A stretch of DNA of 35,586 nt from positions 1 through 35,586 of the forward strand of contig JANXAZ010000034.1 in NCBI GenBank assembly GCA_025062095.1, given 5' to 3'. Each line of letters begins with the position of its first letter. Position 1 is the stretch's first letter. A model generated the notes under the pieces. The model was not told the DNA's origin. It worked only from the letters and a program-made list of their open reading frames with translations, and searched no databases. This DNA comes from Geminicoccaceae bacterium. Its GTDB lineage: Bacteria > Pseudomonadota > Alphaproteobacteria > Geminicoccales > Geminicoccaceae. Both the position numbers and the translations under genes were made by a program. This document shows positions 7,950 to 35,243 of the stretch, in pieces.

Positions 7950-9113
7950 TCAAACGGCGAGCAAGAGAGCGAGCCGGTCGCGATCGGCGGCGAGCTTCTG
8001 ATACTGCTCGGCGAGGAAGCGCACGGTCGCGGGTCCGTAATCGCTGCGCGCCGGCCGGCCCTCGACCGCCGCTTCGGCGAGCTCGAGGGCCATGCGCACG
8101 AGCAGATAATGGGGGAAGGGAAAGCCGGCCTTGAGGCAGACGGCGGCCAGCCGGCGGCGGTCGGCGTCGTAGAGGAGGCGGCGGACCCGCCCGAGCGGCT
8201 CGCCCGCGTGCAGCGCCACCCCGATTTCGAAGCCGGCGACGTCGCCTTCGCGCAACATCGCGAGAAGCGCCTCGTGGTCGAGCTCTCCCGCCCGCCAACG
8301 CTCGGCCAGGGCCTGCTCGCGGCCCCGCGGCCCGTGCTCGCGGGCGAGGAGGTCGATCGTCGAGCGCTCGCGGGCGGCGCGGACGATCGCCCGGGCGGTC
8401 GCGAGCGGCAGGCGCATGTTCTCGACGAGCTCCCATTCGAGCCGCTCGGCCACCAGCCGGACGAGCTTCTCGATCAGCTCGAAGGGGAGCTCGGGGCGGC
8501 GCACGAGGCGGTCGCGCACCGTGCGGTCGCGGCCGTGCTCGGCGAGGACGCGCTCGAGCGCGGCGCGCGACAGCTGCGCGCCGGGATTGCCCACGAGCTT
8601 GGCGGCGACCGGCGTCTCCCCGCGATCGAGCAGCGCCGCGCAGACGACTTCGGAGAGCCGGCTGCGCCCCGCCACCGCGAGCGCGTACTGCATGGCGTTG
8701 GTCTGAACGATCGCGACGAGCTCCTCGTCGGAGAGCAACGGGCTCTTCTCGAGCACCGGCTCGGCCACCTCGATCTCGTCGCGGGCGAGCCGGCGCACCA
8801 CCCAGGACGGGACGTCCTCGCGATCGGCGACCGCCTCGGCGAGGGCCTTGCGGACTTCGACGGCGACGTCCTTGACGAGCAGAGCGAGCACCGCCTCGAC
8901 CAGGGCCCGCTCGCGCGGCTCGGTGAAGCTCTGCAACCCGCGGCCGAGCTTGCGCGCGATCCGGGCGCGCTCTTCGGGCGAGCGGTGGGCGGCGAGGCGG
9001 GCGACGTCGGCCGCCCCGAGCGGTTCTTCGGTCACGGGTGCGGGGGCGCGGGCGAGAAGCGCCTCGCGCCGCCGACCACCGCTCGCCGCCGCCTGCGCAT
9101 CCTCCGGGCGCAT
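7950..9113 (-). CDS. DUF2336 domain-containing protein
   Basis: A 387-residue, mostly helical, HEAT-repeat-like protein of the DUF2336 family, which is largely restricted to Alphaproteobacteria and has no firmly assigned biochemical role. Visible features are repeated helical units with SPEERARIARKLG, VRKALAEAVADREDVP and SPLLSDEELVAIV, the last being typical of DUF2336, and a charged C-terminal helix. It is likely cytoplasmic: there is no signal peptide and no membrane segment. I chose the ATG at 9113 because upstream sequence is low-complexity and overlaps the mmcB leader on the other strand. Together with mmcB it forms a divergent pair separated by 53 bp. The function is not inferred. Confidence 0.85.
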   Translation of the reverse strand: MRPEDAQAAASGGRRREALLARAPAPVTEEPLGAADVARLAAHRSPEERARIARKLGRGLQSFTEPRERALVEAVLALLVKDVAVEVRKALAEAVADREDVPSWVVRRLARDEIEVAEPVLEKSPLLSDEELVAIVQTNAMQYALAVAGRSRLSEVVCAALLDRGETPVAAKLVGNPGAQLSRAALERVLAEHGRDRTVRDRLVRRPELPFELIEKLVRLVAERLEWELVENMRLPLATARAIVRAARERSTIDLLAREHGPRGREQALAERWRAGELDHEALLAMLREGDVAGFEIGVALHAGEPLGRVRRLLYDADRRRLAAVCLKAGFPFPHYLLVRMALELAEAAVEGRPARSDYGPATVRFLAEQYQKLAADRDRLALLLAV

Positions 9114-9166
9114 GTTCGCTCCACCGCCGCTCGCGCCGGTCCACCGACCCGCCGGCCTCCCCGAGC

Positions 9167-9706
9167 ATGTCGGGAAACGGTAAAAGAACCTTTGTGTCCG
9201 CGCCTCGTTCCGCCCTCGACCTCCGTACCCCGGGACCGCGCGCCGCCGAGGACATCCGCCGCGGCACGATGCGCCTGCTCGCCGCCCTCGGGCTGGCGCC
9301 GCTGGCGGAAGTGCCCCTGCCCGACGGCCGTCGGCTCGACGTCCTGGCCCTCGCACCCGAGGGGAGCTTCTGGGCGGTGGAGATCAAAAGCGTCCCCGCC
9401 GACTTCCGCGCCGACCGCAAATGGCCCGAGTACCGCCGCTTCGCCGACCGCTTCTTCTTCGCCGTCGGCCCCGACTTCCCGCTCGATCTCCTGCCCGCGG
9501 ACACCGGGCTCGTCGTCGCCGACGGCTTCGCGGCGACGCTGGTGCGCGAGGCGCCCCTCGAGCCGCTGCCGCCCGCCCGGCGCCGAGCGCTTCTCCTGCG
9601 CTTCGCCCGGCTCGCCGCCGGTCGGCTCTTGCGCCTCGCGGATCCCTTCTGCGAACCCGGCTGTGCGGCTCAGCCGCCCTCGAACAGCCATTCCTCGATC
9701 AGATAG
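9167..9706 (+). CDS. mmcB: MmcB family DNA repair protein
   Basis: Small protein of the MmcB family, known in Caulobacter as a DNA-damage (mitomycin C) response and repair factor. The 179 residues include a compact PD-(D/E)xK-like core: Asp58 in RRLDVLAL and Glu72/Lys74 in AVEIKSV, followed by DFRADRKWPEY and RFADRFFFAV, which are strongly conserved in the family. The start is taken at ATG 9167; a GTG at 9194 is possible because neither has a strong ribosome site. The last 37 bp overlap the 3' end of nudC convergently, so the C-terminal tail after FCEPGC is probably not conserved. Confidence 0.85.
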   Translation: MSGNGKRTFVSAPRSALDLRTPGPRAAEDIRRGTMRLLAALGLAPLAEVPLPDGRRLDVLALAPEGSFWAVEIKSVPADFRADRKWPEYRRFADRFFFAVGPDFPLDLLPADTGLVVADGFAATLVREAPLEPLPPARRRALLLRFARLAAGRLLRLADPFCEPGCAAQPPSNSHSSIR

Positions 9707-27982: not shown

Positions 27983-29230
27983 TCAGCCGCGGCGCGTGAT
28001 CCGGCGGCCGCGGCGGTCGAGCTCGCGCTCGACTTCGGCGAGGCTCGCCCCCGTCGCCGCGAGCTTGACGAGGGCGAAATAGAAGAGATCCGCCGCCTCC
28101 CAGACGACCTCCCGGGGGGTGCGGGCGCGCGCGAGCTCTTCGGCCTCCTCGCGCAGCTTGGCGGCGAGGAGTTCGGGGTCTGCGAAAAGCCGGGCGGAAT
28201 AAGAGCCCTCGGGCGGGGCGAGACGGCGCGAACGCAGGATCGCCTCCAGGCGAGCGAGACCTTCCGCCTCGCCGAAGCAGGAATAGCGCGCGAGATGGCA
28301 GAAGCCGGGCGGCTTCTGGCGCACGACGAAGCGCAGCGCGTCGCGGTCGCAATCGAGATCGATACGCACCAGCTCCTGCGTGGCGCCGCTGGTCTCGCCC
28401 TTCACCCACAGCCCGCGCGCGCGCGACTGGTACACACCGGCCCGCCGCCGCACGGCTTCCCGCAAGGAGTCCCGCGAGCTCCAGGCGAGCCCGAGGACGA
28501 TCCCGCGCTCGTCGGCGACCACGGTCGGGAACAGCCCGTCCGGGCGATCGGAGCGCAAGGGGGCGGCGATCGCATCGGCGAAATCGAGCCGACCGGTATA
28601 GAGCGCCATGCCCACCTGCGCGTCCGCCCCCAGCCGATCGAGGGCGGCGATCTCCTCGGCGGTTGTGATCCCGCCCGCGATCGTCACCCGACACTCGGGG
28701 CCGGCGGCGCGCACCACGGCTTCCGCGAGGGCCATGTCGGTTCCCGCCATCCGGCCCTCGCGCTCGACGAAGGTGACGAGGAAGCCGCCGACGAAGGGGC
28801 GGAGCTCTTCGATCCGCTCGAGGATCCCCCGCCCGGTGGGCTTCTTCCAGCCCTCCACCACGACCTCGCCGTGGCGGGCATCGAGCGCCGCGATCACGCG
28901 CTCGCGCGGCAAGGCGCGCAAGAGTTCGGGACGCGCGGCGGTCCCGAGCACGATCTTGGTCGCTCCGCGGTCGAGCCAGTACCGCGCCGTCTCGAGGTCG
29001 CGGATCCCGCCCCCCACGCGGCAGGAGAAACCGGCGTCGAGGAGCTTCTCGACGAGAGCCGCGTTCGAGCCGGTGCCGAGCGCGGCGTCGAGATCGACGA
29101 CCGCGATCTCGCCCGCGAGCGCGAAGCGCTCGGCGATCGGCAGCGGATCGCCGGCCTCGAGGGCGAGCTCCTCCCCGCCCACGAGCTGGACGACCCGTCC
29201 CCGCTGGAGATCGATCGAGGGGACGATCAC
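27983..29230 (-). CDS. HisA-HisI-HisE trifunctional fusion
   Basis: One 415-residue polypeptide covering three histidine-pathway steps. Residues 1-225 are the ProFAR isomerase HisA (TIM barrel; Asp7 in PSIDLQ, Asp117 in [14 protein letters not shown] and AGGIT phosphate sites). Residues 228-320 are phosphoribosyl-AMP cyclohydrolase HisI ([16 protein letters not shown]; zinc cysteines in [15 protein letters not shown] and YSCFG). Residues 330-412 are phosphoribosyl-ATP pyrophosphatase HisE ([25 protein letters not shown]). No stop or frame change separates them. The start is GTG at 29230, overlapping the hisF stop (GTGA). Expected HisA, HisI and HisE proteins are usually separate or only HisI-HisE fused. 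The HisA part is itself divergent ([24 protein letters not shown]). Confidence 0.93.
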
Positions 29231-31249: not shown

Positions 31250-32125
31250 TCAGACCACGATCTGGGCGATGTCGAAGACGACGATGTCGGTGCCGCCCCG
31301 CTCCTTGATCAAGCGGATGAGCTCGGGCAGCTGGGCGCGCGGCACGGCCGCTTTGACCGCGAAGCCGGCGTCGTGGTGCAACGGCGCGATCGTGGGCTCG
31401 CGCATGCACGGCAAGATCTCGACCACCCGTTCGAGGCATTCCTTGCTCACGTTGACCTCGAGCATCACGCGTTTGCGCGCATCGAGCACCGAGCGCACGA
31501 GCATGGTGAAATGCTCGATCACCGGCCGTTTGTTCGGGTCCTCGAGCGAGCGCGGATTGGCATAGAGACGGGTCGAGCTGTGCATGATCTCGTCGACCAC
31601 GAGCAGACCGTTCGCGCGCAACGTGGCACCGGTGGCCGTGTTGTCGACGATGCAATCGGCGTCTTCGGGAGGGAAGACTTCCGTCGCTCCGTACGAGCGG
31701 ACGATGCGCGCCTGCAGCCCCCGGCGCTCGAGCCAGCCGCGGGTGAGCCGCTCGTATTCGGTGGCGACCACGAACGGCCGCGCCGGGAGCTCGCCGTCCT
31801 CGAGGAAAGAGGGTGTGGCGGCGACGACGATGCGGACCGGATCGAGACCGGTATCCAAAAGCTCGACGAGATCGGCCTCGAGCTCGACGACCCAATCCGC
31901 GCCGGCGAAGCCGAGGTCGCGCGAGCCGTGGTGCAACATCTCGACGATGTTCTGCGGCTTCAAGAGCTTGGCCTCGAAACCGGGAAGCGAGAGCGAAGGC
32001 CGGTAGCCGCGCCGATCGAAGGTCACCCGGATCCCGGCATCGGCCAGAAGCGCGAGGACGTTGTCCTGCATCCGCCCCTTGGGGAGCGCGAGATGCACGA
32101 GAGGCGGTGAGGGTGCGGAGGACAC
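31250..32125 (-). CDS. hisG: ATP phosphoribosyltransferase, long form
   Basis: First committed enzyme of histidine synthesis, joining ATP and PRPP. The 291-residue product is the long form: two catalytic lobes (LALPKGRMQDNV near residue 12, GFAGADWVVE, the PRPP loop DNTATGATLRAN) and a C-terminal ACT-like regulatory domain (about 215-291; KRVMLEVNVSKECLERVVEILP, GGTDIVVFDIAQIVV). The long form is feedback-inhibited by histidine and needs no HisZ. The start is uncertain: GTG 32125 is chosen; GTG 32098 would give MHLALPKG. Neither has a Shine-Dalgarno. The GTG at 32200 lies too close to the presumed transcription start. Confidence 0.93.
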   Translation of the reverse strand: MSSAPSPPLVHLALPKGRMQDNVLALLADAGIRVTFDRRGYRPSLSLPGFEAKLLKPQNIVEMLHHGSRDLGFAGADWVVELEADLVELLDTGLDPVRIVVAATPSFLEDGELPARPFVVATEYERLTRGWLERRGLQARIVRSYGATEVFPPEDADCIVDNTATGATLRANGLLVVDEIMHSSTRLYANPRSLEDPNKRPVIEHFTMLVRSVLDARKRVMLEVNVSKECLERVVEILPCMREPTIAPLHHDAGFAVKAAVPRAQLPELIRLIKERGGTDIVVFDIAQIVV

Positions 32126-32179
32126 GGAGGGGGTCGGATCGGGGCCGTCGCGCCGTCGCTTCAGCGATCTGGGCCGGCT

Positions 32180-32191
32180 GTGCCTTGGCAC
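32180..32191. repeat. Palindrome in the hisG/kinase promoter region
   Basis: GTGCC-TT-GGCAC, 5-bp arms around a TT centre. It overlaps the -35 of the rightward promoter candidate and lies just inside the start of the his transcript, a suitable place for an operator. It is short, so chance is possible. Confidence 0.35.
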
Positions 32192-32211
32192 GCCGCGCAC
32201 CCGCTTATAGA
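32185..32211 (+). promoter_or_regulatory. Possible promoter for the FGGY-kinase homologue
   Basis: TTGGCA (32185-32190) and TATAGA (32206-32211), 15 bp apart, one or two short of optimal spacing. Predicted leader is about 65 nt before ATG 32283. The TATA element is shared with the leftward his promoter. Confidence 0.35.
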
Positions 32212-32282: not shown

Positions 32283-33785
32283 ATGGCGGAGGAGGAACGG
32301 CCGCGGGCCGTGCTGGGGGTGGACGTCGGTTCCGCGCGCACGATCGGGGTGTTGCTCGCCGCGGACGGTCGCGTCCTCGCCCGCGCCCGCGTCGACCATG
32401 CGCCGCTCGCGCCCCGGCCCGACCGGCTCGAGCAGGACCCCGAAACGCTGTGGTCGGCGTTCCGCGAGATCGTCCAGCGCCTCAAGGCGCTCGTCGAGGT
32501 CCGGCTCGTCGGGCTCGCGCTCACCGGCGAGCCGGGCGGGCTCGTCTTCCTCGATCGTGCCGGCGTTCCCGTCCGGCCGGCGATCCTCGGGCCCGACCGC
32601 CGCGCCGAGGCGGAGGCTCAGGAGCTCGCCGCGCGTCTTCCCCCCGCGCGGTTGCACGCGATCGCCGGCCGGCGGCTCGGCCCCTGTCTTTCCGCCGCCA
32701 AGATCCTCTGGCTCGCCGCCAACGAGCCGGAAGCGGCGCAACGCGTCACCAAGATCCTCTCGCCCAAGGGCTACGTGCTCTTCCGCTTGACCGGCGAGAC
32801 GGTGACGGATGCGAGCGCCGCGTCCGCGACCGGACTTCTCGATCTCGCCCGCCGGCAGTGGAGCGAGACCGTCCTCGAGGCGCTCGCGCTCGACCCCGAG
32901 CTCTTGCCCGAGGTCTTCGAGGGCGGGGAGGTGTGCGGGCGGGTGAGCGTGGCCGGTGCCGCCGAAACCGGCCTCCCGGTGGGCCTGCCGGTGGTCGCGG
33001 GCGGCAGCGAGCTCGCCTGTGCCGCGCTCGCCGCCGGGATCAAGCGCCAAGGCCAGGGGCTCTTGTGGCTGGAGCCGGGCGCCGGGTTCCTCTTGCCCTG
33101 CGGGCGGCCGCTCGTCGATCCCGAAGAGCGGCTCGAGAGCGCCTGCGGAGCGGCGGGGGGCTGGCTCCTCCTCGGCACGCTCCCGCAGGGGCCGAGCGCC
33201 TTGCGCTGGCTCGCCGAGACCCTCTGCCCGGAATGGGCGGAGGCGGCGCGCGCCGCCGGCTTGGAGCCGGTGGACGCGGTCCTCGGCGAGGCCGGCGCGG
33301 CCGAGCGCGCCGACGCCCCGTTGTTCTTCCCCGGCCTCGCGGAAGAAGGCATTCTCGGCCGTCCGGCCTTCGCGGAGCTCGCCTTCCATCACGGCCGCGC
33401 GGCCCTCGCCCGTGGCGTTCTCGAAGGTATCGGCTTCGCGCTCCTCGACCGGCTCGAGCGAGCGCGGGCCTTGGGTTGCGCTCCCGAGAGCTTGGCCGCG
33501 AGCGGCCGGGTCGCGGGAAGCGAAGCCTGGTCGCGGCTGCTCGCCGCTCAACTGGGGATTCCGCTCCGGCTCCTCGCCGGCGGCCTCGAGCCGGAGCGCG
33601 GTGCGGCCGTGCTCGCCGGGATCGGGGTCGGGCTCTTCCGCGACGGGGTCCGAGCCGCCGAAGGGATCGCCGAGGCCGAACTCGCCTCGATCGGCGTGGA
33701 GGCCGGGCTCGCCGCCCTCGAACGAACGCGCTACGGGCGTTGGCAGCGGCTGCACCGGGTCTTCGCCGCCTTCGCGACTTCCTGA
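32283..33785 (+). CDS. FGGY-family carbohydrate kinase homologue, active-site motifs altered
   Basis: Related to xylulokinase-type FGGY sugar kinases (500 residues, two ribonuclease-H-like lobes). Matches are GVDVGSA (12-18), RLEQDPETLW, PVRPAIL and TDASAASATGLLDL. However, several normally invariant positions differ: the catalytic GGGD is GGSE (240-243), the following SLGTSG ATP loop is WLEPGAG (262-268), the substrate GQMHG-type site is GEPGG, and the GGG of the ATP site in the C-terminal lobe is SGRVAGSE. It may be a kinase with changed chemistry or a catalytically dead regulator; sequence alone cannot decide. It is divergently transcribed from hisG and followed 87 bp later by a TadG-like gene. 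Confidence 0.8.
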   Translation: MAEEERPRAVLGVDVGSARTIGVLLAADGRVLARARVDHAPLAPRPDRLEQDPETLWSAFREIVQRLKALVEVRLVGLALTGEPGGLVFLDRAGVPVRPAILGPDRRAEAEAQELAARLPPARLHAIAGRRLGPCLSAAKILWLAANEPEAAQRVTKILSPKGYVLFRLTGETVTDASAASATGLLDLARRQWSETVLEALALDPELLPEVFEGGEVCGRVSVAGAAETGLPVGLPVVAGGSELACAALAAGIKRQGQGLLWLEPGAGFLLPCGRPLVDPEERLESACGAAGGWLLLGTLPQGPSALRWLAETLCPEWAEAARAAGLEPVDAVLGEAGAAERADAPLFFPGLAEEGILGRPAFAELAFHHGRAALARGVLEGIGFALLDRLERARALGCAPESLAASGRVAGSEAWSRLLAAQLGIPLRLLAGGLEPERGAAVLAGIGVGLFRDGVRAAEGIAEAELASIGVEAGLAALERTRYGRWQRLHRVFAAFATS

Positions 33786-33872: not shown

Positions 33873-35243
33873 ATGTCCGTGGCCAGGCTTCGCGCGCATC
33901 TCCTCCGCCTCTTCCGCTCGTGCCGTGCCTCGCATCGGGCCGGCGAGCGGGGGGCCGTGGCGATCGTCCTCGCCCTCGCCTTCGTCCCCGCCGCGCTCGC
34001 CGTGGGTGCCGCGCTCGATTACGCGCGGGCGGCGACCGCCCGCTCGGCTCTGCGCGCGGCGGTCGACGCCGCGGCGCTCGCGGCGGCACGGGAGACCGAC
34101 CAGAGCCCGGCCAATCTCCGCGCCGTGGTCGAGCGGTACCTGCGCGCGAATTTCCAGAGCGAGCTGCACGGCACGCTCGGCGCGCTCGAGGTCCAACCGG
34201 GGACGACGACGCTCACCGTGCGCGCGCGCGCGTCGGTGCCCACGAGCCTCATGCGCCTGGGCGGTCTCGAGCGCATGGAGGTGGCCGCCGAAACCGAGGT
34301 CGTGCTGAGCGGGGTGAACCTCGAGGTCGCCCTCGTCCTCGACGTCACCGGCTCCATGGCGCAGGGCACCAAGCTCCCCGATCTCAAGGCGGCGGCGACG
34401 GATCTCGTGAACATCCTGATCCGCGACGTCGCGAGCCCGTTCTACACCAAGATCTCCCTCGTTCCCTATTCGATGGGCGTGAACGTCGGCATGCTCGCGA
34501 ACACGGTGCGGGGTAGCGTGAGCCCGGGCGAATGCACCTCCCCGGGATGCGAATATTTCAAGTTCCGCAATCCGTACAACGAATGGCGGAGCTTTCGCAT
34601 CAGCACCTGCGTGAGCGAGCGGATCGGCCCCCACGCCTATACGGACGCGCCGCCCTCCGTGGCGCCGGTGGGCCGCAACTATCCGGCTCCGAGCAACCCC
34701 TGCCTTTCCAGCCAGCTCCTGCCTCTGACCACCAACAAGGCGCAGCTGTTGGCGGCGATCGCCGGGCTTTCCGCCTCCGGCTCGACCGCGGGCCACGTCG
34801 GCGTCGCCTGGGGCTGGTACACGCTCTCGCCCAATTTCGGGGTCTGGACCGGATCCAGCCGTCCCGGACCCTACGGTCGCGAGGACACGCAGAAGATCCT
34901 GGTGCTGATGACGGACGGTGAATACAACAGCTCTTATTGCAACGGCGTGATCGCCAGGAACTCGACCACGGGTTCCGGTGATCCCCGCAACCACATCAAT
35001 TGCGACGCGCCCAACGGCCATTCTTTCGACCAGGCGCAACGCCTGTGCACGGCGATCAAGCAGAACGGGATCATCGTCTTCACGGTCGGTTTCCAGATCG
35101 TCGACGATCCCCGCGCCCGCGCCCTCATGAGCTCCTGCGCCACGAGCCCCCAGCACGCTTACACGGCGGAAACCGGGGCGCAGCTCCGCCAGGCCTTCCA
35201 GCAGATCGCCAACCGCATCTCCAACCTGCGGATCTCGCGCTGA
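33873..35243 (+). CDS. TadG-like pilus assembly protein with von Willebrand A domain
   Basis: Membrane-anchored secreted protein of the TadE/TadG group. The 456 residues start with a basic cytoplasmic tip, then ERGAVAIVLALAFVPAAL (about 25-45), the single membrane segment with a pilin-like conserved glutamate before it, and a region (48-145) matching TadG N-termini (ALDYARAATARSALRAAVDAAALAAA). A vWA domain follows with the MIDAS motif DVTGS (157-161) and LMTDGEYN. Cysteines in the inserted loops (GECTSPGC, NPCLSS, SYCNG, INCD, SSCATS) suggest disulfides. No other tad genes are in the window, so it may act outside a Tad pilus. Confidence 0.85.
   Translation: MSVARLRAHLLRLFRSCRASHRAGERGAVAIVLALAFVPAALAVGAALDYARAATARSALRAAVDAAALAAARETDQSPANLRAVVERYLRANFQSELHGTLGALEVQPGTTTLTVRARASVPTSLMRLGGLERMEVAAETEVVLSGVNLEVALVLDVTGSMAQGTKLPDLKAAATDLVNILIRDVASPFYTKISLVPYSMGVNVGMLANTVRGSVSPGECTSPGCEYFKFRNPYNEWRSFRISTCVSERIGPHAYTDAPPSVAPVGRNYPAPSNPCLSSQLLPLTTNKAQLLAAIAGLSASGSTAGHVGVAWGWYTLSPNFGVWTGSSRPGPYGREDTQKILVLMTDGEYNSSYCNGVIARNSTTGSGDPRNHINCDAPNGHSFDQAQRLCTAIKQNGIIVFTVGFQIVDDPRARALMSSCATSPQHAYTAETGAQLRQAFQQIANRISNLRISR

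Follow-up and report, generated by a model that had tools for sequence, protein, structure and literature searches.

An FGGY-fold putative pseudokinase in a genus of Geminicoccaceae that looks like a hisG-linked xylulokinase disarmed in place

The FGGY kinases are a known protein family, whose active members, according to the main text of the 2011 family paper, hold the sugar mainly on the N-terminal domain, whereas ATP touches both domains (PMC3245297); that main text uses none of the whole words Asp, aspartate or motif. Residues on which catalysis depends have been probed by mutation in SePSK, a member of the family that phosphorylates D-ribulose. Mutation of D8, T11 or D221 is reported to lower its activity strongly, and the same effect is stated for the corresponding residues of the E. 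coli xylulose and glycerol kinases (PMC4880283). Xylulokinase itself, XylB (TIGR01312; PDB: 2itm, 2nlx), is a further described system with which the protein presented here can be compared over its full length.

YeaZ, for which TsaB is a synonym, belongs to a different family and is smaller than the FGGY proteins. It is a member of the same wide actin-like superfamily, and the account of TM0874 describes it as a relative of actin-like ATPases that has apparently lost ATP binding and has retained a conserved surface for the formation of complexes (PMC2954210). In contrast to the protein described below, YeaZ has a known protein network, and we use it as a precedent only. Pseudoenzymes are a known kind of protein and the FGGY kinases a known family; a search by title returned no report of a bacterial FGGY pseudokinase in the literature covered, which leaves most subscription journals outside.

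The candidate is encoded in the window, by which we mean the whole analyzed stretch of 35,586 nucleotides from a Geminicoccaceae bacterium (GCA_025062095.1, contig JANXAZ010000034.1). An intact open reading frame on the forward strand (32283..33785) specifies a putative FGGY-fold pseudokinase of 500 residues, in which both Pfam domains of the family score above their curated cut-offs: FGGY_N clearly (160.5 bits, cut-off 28.8, E 7e-47) and FGGY_C as a weak match (38.7 bits, cut-off 27, E 1.2e-9). The XylB model TIGR01312 gives the same protein 227 bits, which is under the NCBI curated cut-off of 380.25. Intact versions of the gene are found in all six available genomes of the genus (G000, the window genome, and G020-G024), with the other five proteins 56–75% identical to that of the window (56–57% for G020, G022 and G024), and all six orthologues, at 213–255 bits, lie under the XylB cut-off. 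One of these genomes, G022, is a single-contig 'complete genome' and displays the same motif changes as the rest of the genus. In structural alignments the window protein shares the two-domain FGGY fold with XylB from end to end, at 31–32% identity to 2itm; unlike XylB, it is devoid of the catalytic Asp and the GQMHG, SLGTSG and GGGA motifs, as well as the PYLxGERxPH stretch of the C-terminal domain, on which the original prediction had been silent. Under annotation by name the product would pass for a xylulokinase or another FGGY kinase, which would credit these bacteria with a pentulose phosphorylation that they may lack.

The extent of these departures was established in an alignment of 56 rows, comprising the six orthologues and 50 other FGGY proteins, from which L003/L032 (the window itself) and L004-L007 (judged to be duplicates of G023, G020, G024 and G022) were left out. 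States within the genus are given below in the order G000, G023, G021, G020, G024, G022, and the names and roles of the ATP and phosphate loops are those that we take to apply to the respective sites. The first phosphate loop, canonically D-x-G-T, is D14-V-G-S17 in the window protein (32322..32333, forward strand, as are all motifs below). Its Asp position reads D, D, D, E, E, E, where all 49 comparison rows that have a letter show D; its Thr position reads S, S, R, R, R, R, where 48 of 49 such rows show T. The window copy hence keeps D14 and has Ser17 for Thr, neither of which had been remarked upon in the original prediction. At the substrate loop, the GQMHG found in all five full-length nearest relatives is replaced by GEPGG (residues 82-86; 32526..32540), and GE[PA]GG is seen in all six members of the genus. 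The catalytic-base position, the Asp of the GGGD motif, which we presume to be the catalytic base in agreement with D221 of SePSK, is occupied by E, E, E, A, T, A, as opposed to D in each of the 50 other rows; in the window protein it is Glu243 of GGSE (residues 240-243; 33000..33011). Alignment of this protein with the E. coli xylulose kinase 2itm runs without gaps across VVAGGSELA and VVAGGGDNA, and because the motif is free of gaps E243 can be placed at the position of the catalytic Asp. D105 is retained throughout the genus and in every one of the 49 comparison rows that have a letter there.

The two ATP loops depart from the family in a different manner. The second phosphate loop, SLGTSG in canonical members, is WLEPGAG in the window protein (residues 262-268; 33066..33086), and W262, L263, E264, P265, G266 and G268 are invariant within the genus; Glu264, present in all six, replaces a Gly seen in 50 of 50 others. 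The adenosine motif GGGA is GRVA (residues 408-411; 33504..33515; codons checked), with Arg409 in all six in place of a Gly common to the 48 other rows with a letter. At the catalytic residues, then, the changes come in steps from one genome to the next, whereas at the ATP loops they are the same throughout. SePSK and AtXK-1 (5HTN and others) are likewise FGGY proteins, and D8, T11 and D221 can be matched through the conserved loops to D14, S17 and E243. The window copy and G023 are the mildest cases at these three positions (Asp retained, Ser for Thr, Glu for Asp), whereas in G020, G022 and G024 all three are replaced (by E, R and A or T); of the three residues that SePSK is reported to need (PMC4880283), the former thus keeps one and the latter none. 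The four departures listed in the original prediction, namely Glu243 (GGSE for GGGD), G82-E-P-G-G86 at the GQMHG-type site, W262-L-E-P-G-A-G268 for SLGTSG and a C-terminal ATP motif without GGG (G408-R-V-A411), are all present in the translation, and each of these four sites departs from the canonical motif in six of six genomes. It had also named an aspartate elsewhere in the structure taking the catalytic position as the finding that would speak against it; alignment at the level of sequence revealed none.

Its expectation that the fold would be intact likewise holds in the predicted models. AlphaFold returns a pLDDT of 88.3 and a pTM of 0.88 for the window protein, and 88.5 and 0.90 for the more degenerate protein of G022; as both models were built on ten-row alignments of shared relatives, these values indicate no more than that the sequences are compatible with the fold. 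Each model contains the full two-domain secondary structure, with residue 243 opening a helix after the strand 236-242. Foldseek ranks 2itm, the xylulose kinase of E. coli, first for the window model (E 3.4e-44), and VIA-align 2 places this model with the xylulose kinases 5vm1, 3ifr and 2itm at Z-scores of 46.2, 45.3 and 44.9 (471–480 residues).

The provenance of the gene is indicated by its nearest full-length relatives in other genera, five rows of 38–43% identity with canonical motifs. Four of these canonical relatives score 517–536 bits for XylB and G016 scores 520 (cut-off 380), and a fragment from G018, where the gene is cut by the contig end, reaches 343 bits. In the window the gene is divergent from hisG (31250..32200, reverse strand; a long form, with Pfam HisG and HisG_C), which heads a his cluster, and tblastn with the window neighbors recovered this arrangement throughout the genus (six of six genomes). 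Two other genera share it, with four canonical genomes between them (G003; G016, G017 and G018), and the full-length relatives at this locus are XylB by the NCBI cut-off. In G005 the FGGY gene and hisG are also divergent, at a distance of about 3.3 kb with three predicted genes between them; no his gene was found within the stretch analyzed from G002 and from G015, and the contig of G004 is a 4.8-kb fragment. In a tree of 53 rows, prior to which three fragments (L044, L046 and the second L009 ORF) were dropped, the six proteins group together with 100/100 support, their stem being 1.08 changes per site long, and the genus forms a single clade with the five full-length canonical rows (support 100/99), three of which (G003, G016, G017) sit at the hisG locus. 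All five canonical members of the clade exceed the XylB cut-off, which points to common descent of the genus with XylB proteins. In a tree of 27 rows, after removal of a further 26, the grouping of the five canonical rows to the exclusion of the genus has a p-AU of 0.09, with the genus either nested among them or sister to them.

With canonical relatives in other genera, in four genomes at the same locus, the window gene looks like the orthologue of a hisG-linked xylulokinase that was disarmed in its original place. When 385 genomes from the class and 398 from the phylum were searched with a profile of the genus, no match outside the family reached E <=1e-95, a threshold which, with only the best few candidates scored in each genome, would let a more distant disarmed homologue escape; the matches at 1e-95 were G000, G022 and the canonical G017 in the class search, and G000 alone in the phylum search. 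No protein above the XylB cut-off was found in any of the six genomes of the genus, compared with 15 of the 31 genomes in the family. Xylose isomerase was likewise found in none of the six, and in 2 of the 31 family genomes (G012, G019); since the search also failed to find it in the canonical G003, G005, G016, G017 and G018, and hisG-linked canonical genomes are hence also without it, the loss of the kinase is not accounted for by a missing isomerase. The locus offers a natural comparison, in which orthologues at the same site look active in other genera, are disarmed in one, and show graded steps within that one. The path from enzyme to pseudoenzyme is thereby directly testable.

The mode of selection on the gene was assessed from pairwise substitution rates, of which dS by NG86 is rough at the 73–78% G+C of these genes. 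Over the whole gene dN/dS is 0.23–0.50 in the 15 pairs of the genus and 0.18–0.55 in ten canonical pairs, and at residues 126-250 it drops to 0.11–0.25 (four pairs of the genus). Dividing dN of residues 251-450 by that of residues 9-250 gives 1.27–2.54 in the 15 pairs of the genus and 0.83–1.19 in nine canonical pairs, and in the tenth and closest canonical pair (G016-G017) the quotient is 1.59, within the range of the genus. A subset of five pairs of the genus, taken with seven of the ten canonical ones, had spanned a narrower 1.75–2.22. At 53–62% whole-gene identity the ranges of 11 pairs of the genus and 9 canonical pairs do not overlap, a contrast that amounts to a pattern and not a test, as the pairs share branches and are not independent. 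Relative to HisG, the dN of the FGGY protein is about 2–3.4 in five pairs of the genus versus about 1.5–1.9 in three canonical pairs, which implies that the gene evolves faster in the genus and is still constrained. Thus, the gene of the genus is constrained, and the constraint is weaker on its C-terminal domain, where the greater part of the ATP site lies, than on its N-terminal domain. There are 197 invariant columns among the six proteins and 199 among the five canonical rows; 68 are invariant and identical in both sets and 23 are fixed but different, and the invariant blocks of the genus include GRVSVAGAAETGLP.

Several other explanations of these observations were weighed. That the differences stem from sequencing, frameshift or assembly errors, or from misplaced alignment, is hardly conceivable: four records (L004-L007) stem from metagenome assembly, but the same motifs recur in six genomes, one of them complete in a single contig, and the alignment is gapless at each motif. 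Chance or error was rejected in view of the six intact copies, and a misaligned catalytic site in view of the gapless match both to 2itm and in the 56-row alignment. The long stem branch (~1.08) and the elevated dN relative to HisG (~2–3.4 against 1.5–1.9) are what might be expected of a decaying gene whose function is gone and whose reading frame happens to be unbroken still. We regard such decay as improbable and rejected it, as the selection tests largely refute it: all six frames are intact, dN/dS remains at 0.23–0.50 over the 15 pairs and at 0.11–0.25 in residues 126-250, and the 197 invariant columns include blocks such as GRVSVAGAAETGLP.

A rather unlikely, albeit more serious, alternative is that the protein has remained a kinase of the FGGY fold, acting on a different substrate or by a weak and unusual mechanism, in which Glu243 would serve as the base in the window copy. 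The retention of D14, the conservative nature of S17 and E243 in G000 and G023, the presence of D105 in every row with a letter and the purifying selection on the gene are all in keeping with it. However, G020, G022 and G024 would have to use Ala or Thr as the 'base' and have Glu and Arg in the first loop, the faster-evolving C-terminal domain counts against a retained enzyme, and a change of substrate would not demand the Gly to Glu and Gly to Arg replacements fixed in the ATP loops of all six. A changed substrate alone would be expected to spare the ATP site. The original prediction had left the choice between a pseudokinase and an enzyme that acts on another substrate; that pair of readings is supported, and of the two the pseudokinase is the better supported, because the catalytic site varies among E, A and T and both ATP-loop glycines are Glu and Arg in six of six. 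A special form of the pseudokinase reading, to which we would assign a low probability, has the protein acting as a regulator or partner either of histidine biosynthesis or of the downstream neighbor, a VWA/Tad-like protein (33873..35243, forward strand; Pfam VWA and Tad, TadE/G-like). The divergent hisG and the VWA gene downstream are indeed conserved throughout the genus; tblastn matched the latter in six of six genomes (partially in G020) and in none of eight stretches from other genera, among which that of G018 has no downstream sequence and that of G016 less than 1 kb. Nevertheless, linkage to hisG is common to the canonical kinases of other genera, and the gap to the VWA gene ranges from 87 bases in the window to ~460 in G024 and ~1,010, with a predicted ORF between, in G022. 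Hence neither neighbor argues for a function, and with such variable spacing an operon with the VWA gene is not established.

Taking these alternatives into account, we consider it probable that the gene is orthologous to a hisG-linked xylulokinase and that in the stem of the genus it lost phosphotransfer, and very probably ATP binding, while selection has maintained its product as a folded protein of two domains. The observations drawn upon are computed, namely the predicted fold, synteny, loss of canonical residues, intact reading frames, purifying selection and new invariant motifs. Conserved catalytic residues are lost from a retained fold and this condition is kept between species, as in a pseudokinase; of the features of an active FGGY member, the window protein has neither the catalytic Asp nor either of the two ATP-loop glycines. 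We infer from its sequence that the protein of the genus has no kinase activity, with phosphotransfer probably lost in the stem of the genus. The binding of ATP would very probably have been lost along with it, given the Glu and Arg at these sites: E264-P265 and R409 stand where relatives have small residues, in loops that hold ATP in those relatives, so that the nucleotide pocket is likely to be closed or filled. Some weak residual activity is possible in the window copy, whose changes are mild (D14 unaltered, Ser17 for Thr, Glu243 for Asp). Less surely, the better-conserved N-terminal domain may still bind a partner protein or a small ligand, the latter perhaps other than a pentulose in view of the lost GQMHG. 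The likeliest role would perhaps be that of a ligand sensor or scaffold, for which YeaZ is a precedent in the wider superfamily. A more specific version, which we offer tentatively and regard as doubtful, would be a nucleotide-free sensor, in which Glu264 and Arg409 pair across the empty pocket as a plug that locks the domains, and the GE[PA]GG site of the N-terminal domain reads another ligand (perhaps a phosphosugar) or a partner.

Some further features of these genomes deserve mention. On the reverse strand of the window, a 415-residue ORF (27983-29230) joins a His_biosynth domain (residues 1-215), which by its position and start we take to be HisA, to PRA-CH/HisI (248-319) and PRA-PH/HisE (326-407). 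ORFs of 414–415 residues with the same PSIDL start, recognized by length and start, are present in L070, L071, L065 and L066. A HisA-HisI-HisE fusion is absent from the five his fusions named in the conclusion of PMC1963479. The two other FGGY_C proteins of the window genome (L001 1501-2049, C67; L002 1501-2070, C11) retain the catalytic Asp, and L001 has a very long branch (2.58) and an odd first loop, DLGG for DxGT. Elsewhere in the window, a DUF2336 protein is encoded on the reverse strand (7950-9356).
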